The notes below the pieces were generated by a model. That model made no database searches, was not told the DNA's origin, and saw nothing but the letters and a program-made list of their open reading frames with translations. Source: a virus. From it: DNA of 34,829 nt. Shown one piece after another: positions 2,623 through 34,829 of this stretch; the stretch's first letter is position 1; each line of letters begins with the position of its first letter. The stretch spans positions 1 to 34,829 of IMG/VR virus record IMGVR_UViG_3300030451_001452; one strand, 5' to 3'. A program made the translations under genes and the position numbers.

Positions 2623-2829
2623 TTATTTCTCTGAGTTTAACCATACCGCCAGACTGCCTGTCATTGCACCTGTAACGACTGAGATCAACGCACTCTGCTG
2701 TGTAGACAAATCCGGCTGTGATAACGCCCACTCAATACAGCGTATGTACACACCTGTCATGCACAGCATCATAAACCGTGGCAATATCTTTAGCTCTAAC
2801 ATCTTTTTTGCTACGTCTTCTGCACTCAT
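2623..2829 (-). CDS. Small two-TM protein, holin-like
   Basis: This 68-aa protein starts MSAEDVAKKMLELKILPRF. A first hydrophobic segment (MMLCMTGVYIRCIEW) is followed by the loop ALSQPDLSTQQSAL and a second segment (ISVVTGAMTGSLAVWL). Two spans with a short polar loop in under 70 aa fit class II holins, which makes it an alternative holin to the 1660-2037 product. The ATG overlaps the upstream gene's TGA by 4 nt. Family-level recognition is weak, and the membrane topology comes from reading the sequence only. Confidence 0.65.
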   Translation of the reverse strand: MSAEDVAKKMLELKILPRFMMLCMTGVYIRCIEWALSQPDLSTQQSALISVVTGAMTGSLAVWLNSEK

Positions 2830-3293
2830 TTAAAGCCCCCTTTTAGCCAAACTACCCAAGCCACTAGGCCAGCCACCATAGAAGCTATGAGCAAACCTGC
2901 AAAACCTAGACCAAGCATATCCATAATTTTTTGCACTCGTCTAGCTTTTCTGCGCTTCTCTTCTAAGCGTTCTTGACGCAAGTTACGTTGAATACGCATC
3001 AAGTCAGTCCAAGCATTGAAACCATAATTAGCTATAAGAAAGTTCTTGAGATCCATCTCCATCTTTTCAGCCTTCTTTAAAGCTGCGTAGGTATCAAGAG
3101 CTTGTTCTTCTACATTTTTGAATCTAGATTTTTTCTTTTCTTGATGAGCTTGCTTTACATCAGCAATAGCACCCATCCACTTGCCTATGTCCTTAGACAT
3201 GGCCTCTACTTGCTTACCAGCTTTGTAAGCTGAAACTATACCCCTGTATGCGGTAGTGGCTACGGCAATAGCCGATACAGGATCTATAGCCAT
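2826..3293 (-). CDS. Structural-type helical protein with C-terminal TM segment
   Basis: This 155-aa protein starts with an Ala-rich stretch (MAIDPVSAIAVATTAYRGIV). A charged helical middle with KKAEKMEMDLKNFLIANYG and WTDLMRIQRNLRQERLEEK follows, and the protein ends in a hydrophobic span (about 128-150). The MAIDPVSAIAVATTAY start is one I have seen in marine podovirus proteins near tail fibre and lysis genes. The role is not known; a minor virion or membrane-interacting protein is plausible. A GAGG Shine-Dalgarno-like element lies just before the ATG, inside the end of the preceding gene. Confidence 0.65.
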   Translation of the reverse strand: MAIDPVSAIAVATTAYRGIVSAYKAGKQVEAMSKDIGKWMGAIADVKQAHQEKKKSRFKNVEEQALDTYAALKKAEKMEMDLKNFLIANYGFNAWTDLMRIQRNLRQERLEEKRRKARRVQKIMDMLGLGFAGLLIASMVAGLVAWVVWLKGGFK

Positions 3294-29154: not shown

Positions 29155-29562
29155 TCATATATTTTCGACTTCGCCTAGCCCCTTTTCAGATAATTTTTCA
29201 CGGATGATATACCAAAGATCCGGCAGAGAAATAGTGCAAGTCATGCCCGTGTAGTCGTAATCGATGTTGATAACTGAAAGAGAAATGACTGCCCTTGGCT
29301 CTTGATAATCATACTTATACACAAGCACAGGCTCACAATCCCCAGCTTGTTCACAGGCTTGCACCCACCAATCAGCTTTATGTGTGTAGCCCTTAGCGTA
29401 AGCCTTACACTCGATGGCAAAGCCAGGGATTATAATATCTGACTGCCCTTTCTGCTGATATTGAGAGAGGTTACGCTTTGGTCTGAATCCTAAGTGCTGG
29501 TCTATCTCATTGCATAGCCATAGCTCGAATCTACTTCCTTTATCACGACTTTTCTTGCCCAT
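29155..29562 (-). CDS. PD-(D/E)XK nuclease, Hjc-like
   Basis: This 135-aa protein begins MGKKSRDKGSRFELWLCNEI with Glu13. It then has QQKGQSDIIIPGFAIECK with Asp42 and Glu51-Cys-Lys53. This E...D...ExK arrangement is the active site of the PD-(D/E)XK superfamily, and the compact order resembles archaeal Hjc and phage Holliday-junction resolvases. It may resolve recombination or packaging intermediates, or act as a restriction-like nuclease with the two upstream methyltransferases. It overlaps the cytosine methyltransferase by 20 nt. Confidence 0.8.
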   Translation of the reverse strand: MGKKSRDKGSRFELWLCNEIDQHLGFRPKRNLSQYQQKGQSDIIIPGFAIECKAYAKGYTHKADWWVQACEQAGDCEPVLVYKYDYQEPRAVISLSVINIDYDYTGMTCTISLPDLWYIIREKLSEKGLGEVENI

Positions 29563-30280
29563 TGTATGTGTCCTTTATAGCTGAAAGAAACATGGCTGCT
29601 TGCTGTGGAACTACGGTGTTTCCAAGAGCGTGTAGTCTTTTGGATACCCTAGCATTGCCTCTGCAAAGTTGGGATGGGTACAGGGCAGATCGTCTGGGGA
29701 TGTCCTCAAACCTTCTGACATCTTTGAGCCACGAAAACCCTTGCTGCCCCTGTATCTGTATTTCTGGCAACCCTTGTATTCCGTTGCTGGGATCGTGGGC
29801 AACAATCCAAATGCGACTTCGCCTATGAATTGCTCCGATTGCTGTAGCTGGTATAACTTGCCATTGCGTGTCATACCCGATTGAGGCCAAGTCTCCGATA
29901 ACTCTTCCCATTCCTCGACTAAGCAAAGCTGGCACGTTCTCCAATACGATCCATCGTGGACGTATTCTGCCAGCAATTCTGGCGACTTCTGACCATAAAC
30001 CACTGCGCTTGCCATCAATTCCCTCTGCATCTCGCTTGCCAACACTAATGTCTTGGCAGGGGAATCCAGCGGTGATGACATCAATTCCATCATATCTGTT
30101 TGCATCGAAAGTCCTTACATCATCATGCACAGGCACATCAGGCCAATGCTTGTTTAATATCTTCTGACAAAACTCGTCTGATTCACAAAAGGCTACTGTC
30201 TCATAGCCACCAACTAAACCTTCAGCCGCATAGCTAAAGCCACCAATACCAGAAAACAGATCCAGTATCTTTAGAGCCAT
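29543..30280 (-). CDS. dcm: DNA cytosine-C5 methyltransferase
   Basis: This 245-aa enzyme has all main m5C motifs: I (LDLFSGIGGFSYA, residues 6-18), IV with the catalytic Cys75 (GFPCQDIS), VI (ENV, 114-116), VIII (RRSRIWIVA, 153-161) and X (GNTVVPQ, 220-226). The region between VIII and X that normally holds the target recognition domain is only about 50 residues, so the enzyme is compact. I place the start at ATG 30280 so that motif I begins near residue 6. An in-frame ATG at 30313 is possible. It probably modifies phage or host DNA to evade restriction. Confidence 0.93.
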   Translation of the reverse strand: MALKILDLFSGIGGFSYAAEGLVGGYETVAFCESDEFCQKILNKHWPDVPVHDDVRTFDANRYDGIDVITAGFPCQDISVGKRDAEGIDGKRSGLWSEVARIAGRIRPRWIVLENVPALLSRGMGRVIGDLASIGYDTQWQVIPATAIGAIHRRSRIWIVAHDPSNGIQGLPEIQIQGQQGFSWLKDVRRFEDIPRRSALYPSQLCRGNARVSKRLHALGNTVVPQQAAMFLSAIKDTYNGQEKS

Positions 30281-30918
30281 GACAATCTCGTATCTGTGTT
30301 GCCCTGCTCCCATATAAACCAGGCAAAGGCAATGAACCCTGATGATCCTTCTGGCTGCTCTTCATCGCCACGCCACATGGTCAGGCGTTCAGAGAAAACA
30401 TGGACACGGGCTGGCGGTTGCCTGTTGTATATCTCAGCCCTGCGCTGCTTGCCTTCCAAGAAAGCTAGACGCAACAGCATTGCAAAATATGGCAGCTTCA
30501 TATCCATGCACTTAATTACAAACTCATTAGCCAACTTGTAAGGTGGATTGGTAACAACGGCTGGCGCAAGAGGTTTTAACTCCATGAGAAAGTCCACGCC
30601 TGTTGTCCCGTAATTCCAATCGTTCAAGTCTGTTGATATGACATTGTGACCAGCAGTTTTTAATGGCTCACTGATAGACCCATCACCGCAAGCACACTCC
30701 CATATATCTGTTGGCAGTTTCTCAGCCCTTATGAGGGCTTCTACGGCCTCTCTGGGTGTGGGATAAAAGTCATCTTTTTGTCTAGTCAAAACACCATACC
30801 CATTGTAGCCATGATGACCATGTAATAGAGTAAACTTCCAGCCAGTAGGTACAGGGTTATCTTGATGCGAGTAGCGACAAAGGATCGGAAACTTACTCTC
30901 ATTTGATTGCTCCTGCAT
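30271..30918 (-). CDS. SAM-dependent DNA methyltransferase (NPPY motif, amino type)
   Basis: This 215-aa protein has motif I-like ECACGDGSISEPLKTAG (74-90), an acidic STDLNDW end of the next strand and motif IV TNPPY (123-127), typical of N6-adenine or N4-cytosine methyltransferases. The DFYPTPREAV segment before motif I is common in phage adenine methyltransferases. No separate target recognition domain is seen, so specificity cannot be told. It lies directly upstream of the cytosine methyltransferase and overlaps the zinc-motif gene by 20 nt. Confidence 0.85.
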   Translation of the reverse strand: MQEQSNESKFPILCRYSHQDNPVPTGWKFTLLHGHHGYNGYGVLTRQKDDFYPTPREAVEALIRAEKLPTDIWECACGDGSISEPLKTAGHNVISTDLNDWNYGTTGVDFLMELKPLAPAVVTNPPYKLANEFVIKCMDMKLPYFAMLLRLAFLEGKQRRAEIYNRQPPARVHVFSERLTMWRGDEEQPEGSSGFIAFAWFIWEQGNTDTRLSWL

Positions 30919-32796: not shown

Positions 32797-32941
32797 GCAA
32801 GAGATGGAAATGTGGCAGCGCATTGATATAATTGGTGATCGCATAGAAAAATTAGAGAAGCAGATTGATGAACAAGTAAGAGCGTTCACGATAGCTATGA
32901 ATCTTATTGCAGATGCAATGGAGAAAAAGAATGAGCAATAA
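32789..32941 (+). CDS. 50-aa coiled-coil mini-protein
   Basis: It runs from ATG 32789, overlapping the previous gene by 8 nt, to TAA 32939-32941. MTEQEMEMWQRIDIIGDRIE is followed by KLEKQIDEQV and an Ala/Met-rich helix. The regular spacing of Ile and Leu suggests a dimeric coiled coil. It overlaps the start of the annealing-like gene by 11 nt. A short accessory such as an exonuclease or annealing-protein partner is conceivable; no family is recognised. Confidence 0.6.
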   Translation: MTEQEMEMWQRIDIIGDRIEKLEKQIDEQVRAFTIAMNLIADAMEKKNEQ

Positions 32942-33602
32942 ATTTAGTGATGTCATGGACTTTGTTCATGAGTTAAACAAAACTCATGGCGTGAAGCAAC
33001 GTGGCGGTAAAATGTACACACAAGTTGTGCATCGCATGGAAGCGTTTAGGCGTTTCTATGGTACTGAGTACGGTGTGGACACACAGATTCTTGTCGATGA
33101 TGGGCAGCGTGTGGTTGTCAAAGCCTCGATTACAAACCTTGACGGCATAGTTGTTGGGGCTGGCATGGCTGAAGAGATAAGAGGCCAAGGTCATGTCAAT
33201 CAAACATCAGCCTTGGAAAACTGTGAGACATCTGCTGTAGGCCGTGCGCTTGCATCTATTGGCCTGGCTGGTGGTGAGTACGCATCTGCTAATGAGATGG
33301 ACGGTGTAGGACGTAAGCGTGAAGCACAGGCAGAAGCAGAGAATAAGCCTGTAGTTGACCCAGAGCGTCCTGTACCAGCAAAGCGTGATGACGATCCAGA
33401 GGTACGCAAGACGCAAGACTTTTTTGGTGAGGTAAACAAAAAGGTGGGTGAAGTCAATGACACGGCTAAATTCATCGCTTGGTGCAACACTGATTATGTC
33501 AAGAACGGGATTGCTCACATGAAGCAGCACAACCCTGACTTGGCAAAAATGGCTGTAGATAGAATACAGCTACGCATGAAACAGCTTAAAGGAGAAGCCT
33601 AA
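32931..33602 (+). CDS. Single-strand annealing-like recombination protein (ERF/Rad52-type)
   Basis: This 223-aa protein has a conserved core with VVHRMEAFRRFYGTEYGVDT, VVVKASITNLDGIVVGAGMA followed by EEIRGQGHVN, and TSALENCETSAVGRALASIG followed by LAGGEYASANEM. The TxALENxETSAVGRAL block is the hallmark of ERF-like annealing proteins. The C-terminal third is linker plus a helical domain (AHMKQHNPDLAKMAVDRIQL). It would pair ssDNA produced by the exonuclease at 31340. The start at 32931 is used because the 32907 alternative has no Shine-Dalgarno. Confidence 0.8.
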   Translation: MSNKFSDVMDFVHELNKTHGVKQRGGKMYTQVVHRMEAFRRFYGTEYGVDTQILVDDGQRVVVKASITNLDGIVVGAGMAEEIRGQGHVNQTSALENCETSAVGRALASIGLAGGEYASANEMDGVGRKREAQAEAENKPVVDPERPVPAKRDDDPEVRKTQDFFGEVNKKVGEVNDTAKFIAWCNTDYVKNGIAHMKQHNPDLAKMAVDRIQLRMKQLKGEA

Positions 33603-33937
33603 TGGCAAAGCAGTATATTAAAATGTGCAACATCAAGATGTGGCAGAACGATGGTGATTCAAAGCGTGGGCTGTACAGCAACAGCAAGTGGACACCATAT
33701 CGTGATGGCTCTCCAGCAGACGTTATGTTCCGTGCTGGATGCACATACTCCGTTGCCGCATTTGAAAATGATGATGGCACAATTAACATAGCCATATCTG
33801 AAGTCAGGGATTACCAGGCTAAAGATAATATAGCTGACGGCATATCGCAGGGCGGTCTAAAGCCAGTGGGAGATGCTATCAATCAGCGTTACCAGCCAGC
33901 AGTAAAGGAAACAGACGATGATGACATCCCGTTTTAA
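33602..33937 (+). CDS. Putative single-stranded DNA-binding protein (SSB-type tail)
   Basis: This 111-aa protein ends in ETDDDDIPF, the acidic -DDDIPF tail through which bacterial SSBs bind partner proteins. The N-terminal part (KQYIKMCNIKMWQNDGDSKR to YSVAAFENDDGTINIAISEV) is beta-rich and could be a small OB-like domain, but I cannot align it confidently to SSB. It is encoded right after the annealing protein (one-base overlap), where a phage SSB would fit. Functional partners might be host recombination proteins. Confidence 0.6.
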   Translation: MAKQYIKMCNIKMWQNDGDSKRGLYSNSKWTPYRDGSPADVMFRAGCTYSVAAFENDDGTINIAISEVRDYQAKDNIADGISQGGLKPVGDAINQRYQPAVKETDDDDIPF

Positions 33938-34127
33938 TGCTGAAGGTAAGCTGCTTTACACAGCTAAAGAAGCTTGTGAGATCCTGTTTGGCACTGCAAG
34001 CAAAACGAAACTGAACCTGTTGTACAGGATGCTGAAGGCAGGGGATATAGAGGCAGAACGTGCAGGGAATACATGGCTTATTCCTCGCAGGGTTCTGGTG
34101 GAGCTACATGGAAAAGACAATCTGTGA
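33918..34127 (+). CDS. MerR/excisionase-type helix-turn-helix protein
   Basis: This 69-aa protein has MLKAGDIEAERAGNTWLIPR followed by RVLVELHG, the winged-helix end of excisionase-like domains. It is preceded by LLYTAKEACEILFGTASKTK, which contains the turn. It overlaps the SSB-like gene by 20 nt (its start codon lies in the -DDDIPF coding part) and its TGA overlaps the next ATG. An excisionase would normally accompany an integrase, but none is seen. A transcriptional role is more likely here. Confidence 0.7.
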   Translation: MMTSRFNAEGKLLYTAKEACEILFGTASKTKLNLLYRMLKAGDIEAERAGNTWLIPRRVLVELHGKDNL

Positions 34128-34281
34128 TGACTGCGAAAAAGAAGCCACAAAACAGGTCAAGCACGGTTACTTCTGCAAGGACTGTGCAGTGCGAGTATTG
34201 CGGCAAGACCCACAACGTGATGAGTGGGGAATGGGTGTACAACGGAAACCAGATTCCTCTATGTCACTCTGGGGTTTCTGA
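34108..34281 (+). CDS. 57-aa zinc-motif ORF, frame A (overlaps 34127-34345)
   Basis: It begins MEKTICDDCEKEATKQVKHG and has a second pair (YFCKDCAV), a compact four-Cys zinc ribbon in the first 27 residues. The rest (QDPQRDEWGMGV to MSLWGF) looks less protein-like. The TGA overlaps the ATG of 34281-34541 (TGATG), and the start overlaps the previous gene by 20 nt. It shares 155 nt with the frame at 34127. At least one of the two is real. A +1 shift between the two frames would join both zinc-like halves. Confidence 0.5.
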   Translation: MEKTICDDCEKEATKQVKHGYFCKDCAVRVLRQDPQRDEWGMGVQRKPDSSMSLWGF

Positions 34282-34345
34282 TGACTGTTGTTTCACTAAG
34301 TACCGTAAAGACAGAGAAATGGAATCAGGCGAGGCATCACGCTGA
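34127..34345 (+). CDS. 72-aa zinc-motif ORF, frame B
   Basis: Starting at ATG 34127, which overlaps the TGA of the excisionase-like gene (TGATG), it has a basic and probably unstructured start. A well-formed block follows: VQCEYCGKTHNVMSGEWVYN, then QIPLCHSGVSDDCCFTKYRK. The four to five cysteines and histidines with Trp and Gly look like a real zinc-binding domain. Its first 20 residues look like the weaker part, which is the mirror image of frame A. I favour this frame as the more protein-like over its C-terminal two thirds. Confidence 0.55.
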   Translation: MTAKKKPQNRSSTVTSARTVQCEYCGKTHNVMSGEWVYNGNQIPLCHSGVSDDCCFTKYRKDREMESGEASR

Positions 34346-34541
34346 TGCTTACTATCGCTTCCTTACTGTCTCTGGCTGGGGTATGTATCGAATCGGTGAG
34401 GCTCATGGGATTGAGCCTTACTACCCCAAAGGAAAGGGTATGCTGCCAGATGGCACAATGGCTAGGGGTATCTGGACTGAAGAGTACATGATAGACCAGC
34501 TAACACAGTATCTTTACGATGGGGGAGAGTTTGTAATCTAA
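34281..34541 (+). CDS. 86-aa conserved-looking protein, last of right operon
   Basis: It starts MTVVSLSTVKTEKWNQARHH, continues DAYYRFLTVSGWGMYRIGEA and ends MIDQLTQYLYDGGEFVI. It is acidic and aromatic-rich. I choose ATG 34281, coupled to the upstream TGA. A second allele of its last 27 residues exists at 3-86, with changes mostly at third codon positions, so the frame is under selection. No known family. It ends at the hairpin 34541-34569. Confidence 0.7.
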   Translation: MTVVSLSTVKTEKWNQARHHADAYYRFLTVSGWGMYRIGEAHGIEPYYPKGKGMLPDGTMARGIWTEEYMIDQLTQYLYDGGEFVI

Positions 34542-34580
34542 TAAAGGGGGGCGTAATACCCCCCTTTATGCTACTTTTTT
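34541..34580. terminator. Bidirectional terminator hairpin, right allele
   Basis: A perfect 11-bp stem, ATAAAGGGGGG (34541-34551) with CCCCCCTTTAT (34559-34569), closes the loop CGTAATA. On the plus strand GCTAC and eight Ts follow, so the rightward operon ends here. It also faces the end of the leftward mini-gene operon. The left allele has five G-C pairs plus a C-G pair at the top where this one has six G-C pairs, and both stems stay perfect. Confidence 0.85.
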
Positions 34581-34723
34581 TTCTTTTTGGCCTTCATGAT
34601 TCGCTGTTGCAAAGCCTTTGGTAATGTCTTTTGCTTTGCTGTCAAACCATTGCCCATTTTCTTAGCGGCTTTCTTTGGTGGTCTACCACGCTTAGAGCCA
34701 TACGTTCCTTTGCCCATCGGCAT
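34571..34723 (-). CDS. 50-aa Lys-rich mini-protein with AT-hook-like motif
   Basis: The ATG (34723-34721) overlaps the TGA of the DUF6321-like gene and the frame ends TAG 34573-34571. The sequence begins MPMGKGTYGSKRGRPPKKAA, containing KRGRPPKK, a typical AT-hook core for binding the minor groove of AT-rich DNA. GNGLTAKQKTLP follows, shared with the left allele, and the end is KAKKKKK. This is the best hint that these mini-proteins bind DNA. It replaces two left-allele genes (116-232 and 233-355). Confidence 0.65.
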   Translation of the reverse strand: MPMGKGTYGSKRGRPPKKAAKKMGNGLTAKQKTLPKALQQRIMKAKKKKK

Positions 34724-34829
34724 CACTTCTTCCTCTTCTTTGCCTTGTTACGCTTGGAGATTGCTGCCGCCTTGCGCTTTGCGTCAGCTTTACTGCTTGC
34801 ACCCCATGCTCTCAGGGATAGAAGCAATC
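34723..34829 (-). CDS. DUF6321-like protein, C-terminal part (second allele, partial)
   Basis: This frame is cut by the window end. The visible 34-35 residues include LLSLRAWGASSKADAK followed by a Lys/Ala-rich helix ending KAKKRKK and TGA. They match the end of the 355-663 product closely; the left allele ends KRKA and TAA. The coupling pattern to the next mini-gene is kept (TGATG here, TAATG on the left), showing that translation of these tiny genes is maintained even when the sequences change. Confidence 0.75.
   Translation of the reverse strand, partial: LLLSLRAWGASSKADAKRKAAAISKRNKAKKRKK

Follow-up and report, generated by a model that had tools for sequence, protein, structure and literature searches.

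Near the right end of a 34,829-bp virus record (the window, meaning the whole stretch of DNA analyzed), whose terminase is ∼50% identical to those of HTVC010P-type pelagiphages, two reading frames, A and B, overlap within a rightward gene cluster. Each has only one convincing half, and the question arises as to whether they are two genes sharing DNA, the two parts of one product joined by a programmed frameshift, or a single gene broken by a lost base. These three options were put forward in a first-pass annotation, whose coordinates for both frames, with B in the +1 frame relative to A, are confirmed from the sequence (Table 1); it missed that A and B belong to a four-gene overlap, together with an upstream helix-turn-helix (HTH) gene and a downstream gene, C. 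From comparison with related contigs, we consider it very probable that positions 34108 to 34345 hold two real genes in two frames, with their working halves side by side and each lying over the tolerant part of the other.

Table 1. Features of the overlapping gene cluster (positions in the window)
Feature	Coordinates	Strand	Remarks
Recombination-type gene	32937-33602	+	Cluster member
Gene with DDDDIPF end	33602-33937	+	Cluster member
Excisionase-like/HTH_17 small DNA-binding protein gene, 69 aa	33918..34127	+	Upstream neighbor; stop overlaps B start
Shine-Dalgarno-like GGTGGAG of A	34097..34103	+	Duplex energy -7.4
Gene A, 57 aa	34108..34281 (ATG 34108, TGA 34281)	+	Four-cysteine ribbon, residues 1-29; unconserved tail, 30-57
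TGATG, HTH gene stop/B start	34125..34129	+	First TGATGACTG copy (34125-34133)
Gene B, 72 aa	34127..34345 (ATG 34127, TGA 34345)	+	Basic head, residues 1-19; four-cysteine ribbon, 20-56
Dual-coded 154-bp segment, cassette-like	34127..34280	+	Mismatch step versus flanks; absent in L032
GGGG, Shine-Dalgarno-like site of C in the window's lineage	34271..34274	+	Duplex energy -5.9
TGATG, A stop/C start	34279..34283	+	Second TGATGACTG copy (34279-34287)
Gene C, 86 aa	34281..34541	+	65-base overlap with B; starts on A stop
Terminator-like hairpin closing the cluster	34541..34569	+	11 pairs, then T-rich stretch

The cluster includes a DDDDIPF-tailed gene that was given the working label ssb on account of its tail. 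The HTH gene matches Pfam HTH_17 (1.1e-5), NCBIfam excise (3.3e-5), and a PHROG excisionase family (5.7e-4), all modestly, with the Pfam and NCBIfam scores falling slightly below the curated cut-offs. The start codon of A lies within the HTH gene, preceded by GGTGGAG, and B is offset from A by 19 nt. All 72 codons of B are also coding in either A or C, and B thus bridges two other genes. Gene C is conserved in every contig bearing A and B, and also in L032, which lacks both, and has no match in Pfam, PHROG, or NCBIfam. Among annotated phages, we found no match to A, B, or C of the window, or to the region as DNA.

Scanning IMG/VR with A, B, and C yielded 21 contigs that carry the cluster, or 22 sequences with the window. 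Neither frame is interrupted in any of them, with A spanning 56 to 58 aa and B 66 to 72 aa when counted from the homologous codon, and their relative phase is identical throughout; L066 lacks one whole in-frame codon, and L010 has lost the last six residues of B. The invariant residues fall in opposite halves of the two proteins, in line with the description of two overlapping zinc-motif frames with one good half each. In A (17 rows), they are M1, K3, C6, D8, C9, A13, C23, C26, and R29, all within residues 1 to 29, and in B (19 rows), they are M1, C22, C25, W36, N39, G40, C46, C55, and F56, all of which except M1 lie from residue 22 onward. (L072 to L075 repeat L071 at this locus and were excluded from these alignments; L003 is identical to L001 here and was excluded from some counts.) Averaged over 15 pairs, amino acid identity is 0.61 in the first part of A, 0.36 in its tail, 0.48 in the B head, and 0.56 in the B core.

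The cysteine patterns are C6-x2-C9-x13-C23-x2-C26 in A and C22-x2-C25-x20-C46-x8-C55 in B, and these four putative ligands are invariant in every row of each alignment (17/17 and 19/19). The good end of B had been called a Cys/His domain; H29, H47, and C54, which may have been counted in it, are not invariant, and the metal ligands of B are thus probably the four cysteines. The last cysteine codon of A (34183-34185) and the first of B (34190-34192) flank position 34188, near which the good halves had been said to meet. The working halves are therefore adjacent rather than superposed, and each appears to be written across the tolerant part of the other, an arrangement of functional segregation.

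Selection on the two frames was examined by counting substitutions according to their effects on both, using eight lineages (one sequence each, 8 of the 22) and 28 pairs. In the first half, where the A ribbon lies over the B head, dNN/dSN for A is 0.32 (95% bootstrap interval, 0.16 to 0.53) and dNN/dNS for B is 0.40 (0.24 to 0.60), and in the second half, where the A tail lies over the B ribbon, the ratios are 0.70 (0.49 to 0.98) for A and 0.37 (0.25 to 0.49) for B, the intervals being taken over codons and not over independent lineages, and the pairs sharing branches. By this measure, the first half shows purifying selection on both frames, and the second half shows strong selection on B and weak selection on A. 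In a four-lineage set, the second-half ratio for A is 0.97, equivalent to no constraint, so that no more than weak constraint on the A tail can be claimed at the protein level. As a control, the same count was applied to the part of C that overlaps no other gene (five sequences), where the real frame scored 0.28 to 0.29 and the two fake frames scored 0.95 and 0.99; with fake-frame ratios near 1, the method is not biased toward calling a false frame constrained. In the B/C overlap, B appeared unconstrained in the close set, and codon usage gave no consistent sign as to which of A and B is older. Of the three options raised at the outset, only the dual-coding overlap is supported, both frames being open in all 22 sequences and both being under purifying selection.

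The second half of A is poorly conserved but consistently open, and we estimated how often this would occur by chance given B by replacing B codons with random synonymous ones according to the codon usage of the genome (20,000 draws per sequence). The A tail is open in 0.1 to 3.1% of draws across the 22 sequences. The values for diverged lineages are 1.1% (the window), 1.1% (L027), 1.3% (L066), and 2.4% (L071), and these four are near to, though not fully, independent, since sites synonymous in B are near saturation (dNS, 0.73); because the lineages are related, per-lineage probabilities cannot simply be multiplied. Taking 31-codon pieces from 13 other genes in the window genome, we found 245 of 5,905 open in the relative frame of A. 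The converse observation, that the B head is open given A, is expected by chance at ∼50% in the window and at about 50 to 100% overall, and was dropped as evidence.

A plausible reason for an open but unconserved tail lies in the start and stop codons. The HTH gene/B junction is a TGATG in 19 of the 22 sequences; in L022, L023, and L027, where this overlap is absent, B has an ATG located 12 nt further along (or a GTG), with a Shine-Dalgarno-like GAGG that scores -5.6 in L022 and L027. The A stop overlaps the C start in 21 of the 22, and in L067 it lies 2 nt before. The earlier remark that an error would not explain the TGATG couplings holds, although the one at the B start is missing from those three sequences. 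Shine-Dalgarno-like sites were tabulated for nine of the 22 sequences, with the 5% quantile of duplex energies over 618 plus-strand ATGs of the window (-5.7) as a yardstick. The site of A is at -5.9 or better in eight of the nine lineages and weak in L001 (-2.9), and that of C is at -5.9 or better in five, being weak or missing in L065 (-3.0), L066 (-1.6), L067 (-3.0), and L071 (+0.8). In each of these four, the A stop is on, or within 2 nt of, the C start, and translation of C would depend on ribosomes handed on from A.

We suggest that ribosomes ending the HTH gene may restart on B at the TGATG, and that ribosomes that start at the Shine-Dalgarno-like site of A may run on through its tail and restart on C. 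Such a restart would explain why the unconserved tail of A is kept free of stops up to the C start, and the overlap of the A tail with the C start probably serves translational coupling. Strict coupling has been reported for 13 of 14 ATGA/TGATG pairs tested (Huber et al. 2019, PMC6728339). The HTH gene/B and A/C junctions have the same stop/start overlaps as the termination-reinitiation pairs described there, whereas the A/B locus interleaves two putative coupling tracks over the same bases. A third TGATG (34343-34347) occurs at the B stop, with a frame of 48 aa behind it; this copy coincides with codons for Ala-Asp-Ala in C and probably has no significance. Because TGATG can arise within such a stretch, the motif by itself is weak evidence, and we give it correspondingly less weight.

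How far this coupling goes bears on the alternative that survives best, namely, that the second half of A has no role as protein and stays open only so that ribosomes reach the C start, in which case the A protein is the ribbon. The openness of an unconserved tail, the near-universal overlap of the A stop with the C start, and the weak or absent Shine-Dalgarno-like site of C in four of the nine lineages all speak for it. Conversely, the second-half ratio of A (0.70, with an interval slightly below 1) suggests some protein-level constraint, and C has a good site of its own in the lineage of the window. We regard the matter as evenly poised, and note that this proposal refines the dual-coding explanation rather than opposing it.

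A second alternative is that one frame alone, B or else A, is a gene, the other being open by chance, and here the occurrence of B without A is informative. In L063 and L064, from the same phage group, B is present and the A frame contains several stops. These contigs share with the A/B contigs the recombination gene, the DDDDIPF-type gene, and a downstream lysozyme-type gene; B starts on the TAATG of the upstream gene, and its head is still basic. (Downstream in L063, positions 2649 to 3026 hold a TTG-start frame that overlaps the end of the stand-alone B, with an N-terminal CxxC and a DnaA C-terminal domain [Bac_DnaA_C, 6.9e-13].) A more distant link emerged from a weak hit of the L071 B protein (E, 0.8), later tested by profile: the B profile aligns with gp24 of pelagiphage HTVC034P with an hhalign probability of 95.9% over 42 columns, and no other protein of that genome matches it (E for gp24, 6.1e-8). 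Of the 20 phage records with a match to gp24, 19 are Pelagibacter phages. Gp24 and its pelagiphage relatives, all hypothetical proteins, have the same four-cysteine pattern, W, and CF as B, and gp24 is a distant homologue of B. Unlike B, gp24 stands alone, with stops in the other two forward frames, in a genome that lacks an A homologue. An A profile gave no match in HTVC034P, L063, L064, or L032 (0/4; three of these are 4- to 5-kb fragments), and two A-bearing controls matched. Because B occurs without A in L063, L064, and HTVC034P, these comparisons point to B as a gene in its own right that does not need A. In bacterial and archaeal genomes, 37 stretches fit the pattern, none of them a relative of B.

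Against this background, the low constraint on the second half of A, and the ease with which the B head could be open by chance given A (∼50%), would fit a single gene. However, the ribbon half of A is under purifying selection, with an interval below 1 and four cysteines invariant in 17 rows, and the B ribbon is conserved into phages without A. A one-gene reading is thus very unlikely.

A programmed +1 ribosomal frameshift near 34186-34190, giving one double-ribbon protein from the A and B ribbons, would account for the exact abutment of the two ribbons and for the fact that the A tail and the B head are the less conserved parts. It would not account for an A tail that is open for ∼30 codons beyond the site in all 22 sequences, for the constraint on the B head (0.40), for the start codon that B keeps in every lineage, or for the stand-alone B of L063 and L064, which has a basic head of its own; a conserved slippery run was not seen in the alignments, inspected by eye only. 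B, which occurs without A, is on this evidence not the frameshifted second half of A. We therefore rejected the frameshift as the main reading, and consider it extremely improbable. If a gene normally in one frame had lost a single base, or had been misread in sequencing or assembly, just such a good-half/bad-half split would appear in a lone sequence, but this reading is refuted by the relatives, as the joining base that would have marked it is present in none of the 21 independent contigs, the frames are open everywhere, and the phase is the same apart from the in-frame codon lost in L066. The check for such a base that the first-pass annotation had asked for thus goes against an error.

The dual-coded segment also behaves as a unit in evolution. 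Between the window and L009, there are 5/180 mismatches in the HTH gene, 5/182 in C alone, and 45/154 in the A/B segment, and between L022 and L027, the corresponding values are 8/180, 12/182, and 64/154; the segment thus diverges by 29 to 42% in these two pairs, and the flanking genes by 2.7 to 6.6%. In both pairs, the change in identity is near the B start and the C start, and three other pairs compared have no such step. L032 (1789-2261) lacks the segment entirely, with the HTH gene stop directly overlapping the C start (TTATGACTG), the junction that would result if 154 bp were lost between the two ATGACTG copies; L006 and L007 carry exactly the same DDDDIPF-type protein as L032. From the two diverged pairs and the absence in L032, the A/B unit appears to be replaced or lost as one piece, taking both proteins with it. 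For the two diverged pairs, rapid evolution in situ could be proposed instead, but the sharp edges and near-identical flanks favor exchange; no donor for the segment was identified. If the L032 contig is correct, it says that the A/B pair is not essential to that lineage. A further, speculative reading, which we think unlikely, is that the 154-bp unit is a mobile two-protein cassette, with A and B acting together (for example, against a host factor) and swapped by recombination in the flanks. Under such a scheme, the shared DNA would force A and B to be inherited and swapped jointly, and exchange would proceed by recombination in the conserved flanking genes, helped by the ATGACTG repeats at the ends.

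Neither A nor B has a match above cut-off in Pfam, PHROGs, or NCBIfam; the best Pfam match of A is C1_1 (19.2 bits versus a cut-off of 26.5), and B has nothing near cut-off. Profile comparison of A against the PDB gave weak matches to the zinc-ribbon RNA polymerase subunit RPB12 (E, 0.002), a resemblance that we treat as a lead only. AlphaFold2 models are of low confidence (mean pLDDT, 61.5 for B and 53.9 for A), including a predicted helical tail in B. Confidence is lowest at residues 35 to 50 of A and at residues 8 to 15 and the ends of B, zones that fall where segregation predicts, which is consistent with it but not proof. Judging from their cysteine patterns, A and B are probably small, cysteine-rich, zinc-binding proteins. 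The basic head and four-cysteine ribbon of B, together with the adjoining recombination-type and HTH genes, suggest that it may bind nucleic acid, although this is a guess.

Gene callers usually miss overlapping genes, and the clear examples in which the working halves are segregated are most familiar from small viruses or RNA viruses. Neither the segregation of functions between overlapping genes (PMC9119678) nor the overlap of two phage genes (PMC6139136) is new as a kind. In the HIV-1 tat/rev overlap, a case of functional segregation (Fernandes et al. 2016, as cited in PMC9119678), the working residues also occupy different stretches, with one motif lying over a disordered linker of the other protein; unlike tat/rev as presented there, A and B are small four-cysteine proteins of a double-stranded DNA phage, with proposed coupling to same-strand neighbors and exchange as a block. 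Lambda-type embedded or overlapped Rz/Rz1 spanins are likewise phage pairs that overlap in different frames and take other layouts in relatives, and the spanin review describes overlapped and separated layouts within single families (PMC6139136). However, spanins are envelope lysis proteins, whereas we noticed no sign of a membrane segment in A or B, which sit in a recombination-gene region. In the open-licence literature, we found no description of two four-cysteine proteins lying in each other's tolerant halves, bridged to a third gene, and exchanged together.

Marine-phage genomes of the type that carries the A/B overlap are abundant, and the overlap can be traced in eight lineages, among them one state in which B stands alone and another in which both genes are missing; the fake-frame control supplies an internal null. 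The locus is a small natural system in which to ask how DNA comes to be shared by two folded modules, whether a tail that is not conserved can persist solely because it carries ribosomes to the following gene, and whether shared DNA locks two proteins into one unit of exchange.

Two other features of the window genome deserve mention. Positions 1 to 131 and 362 to 461 are ∼88% identical to positions 34456 to 34586 and 34730 to 34829, making them copies of one region, the pattern that would arise if ends from two strains had been used to close a circular or permuted genome. Elsewhere, on the minus strand, a 164-aa frame (29611-30105; PHROG 1008, DNA methyltransferase, 2e-18) is nested in another frame within a cytosine methyltransferase gene (29543-30313; Pfam DNA_methylase, 8e-38), and is a candidate for a second nested coding pair in this genome.
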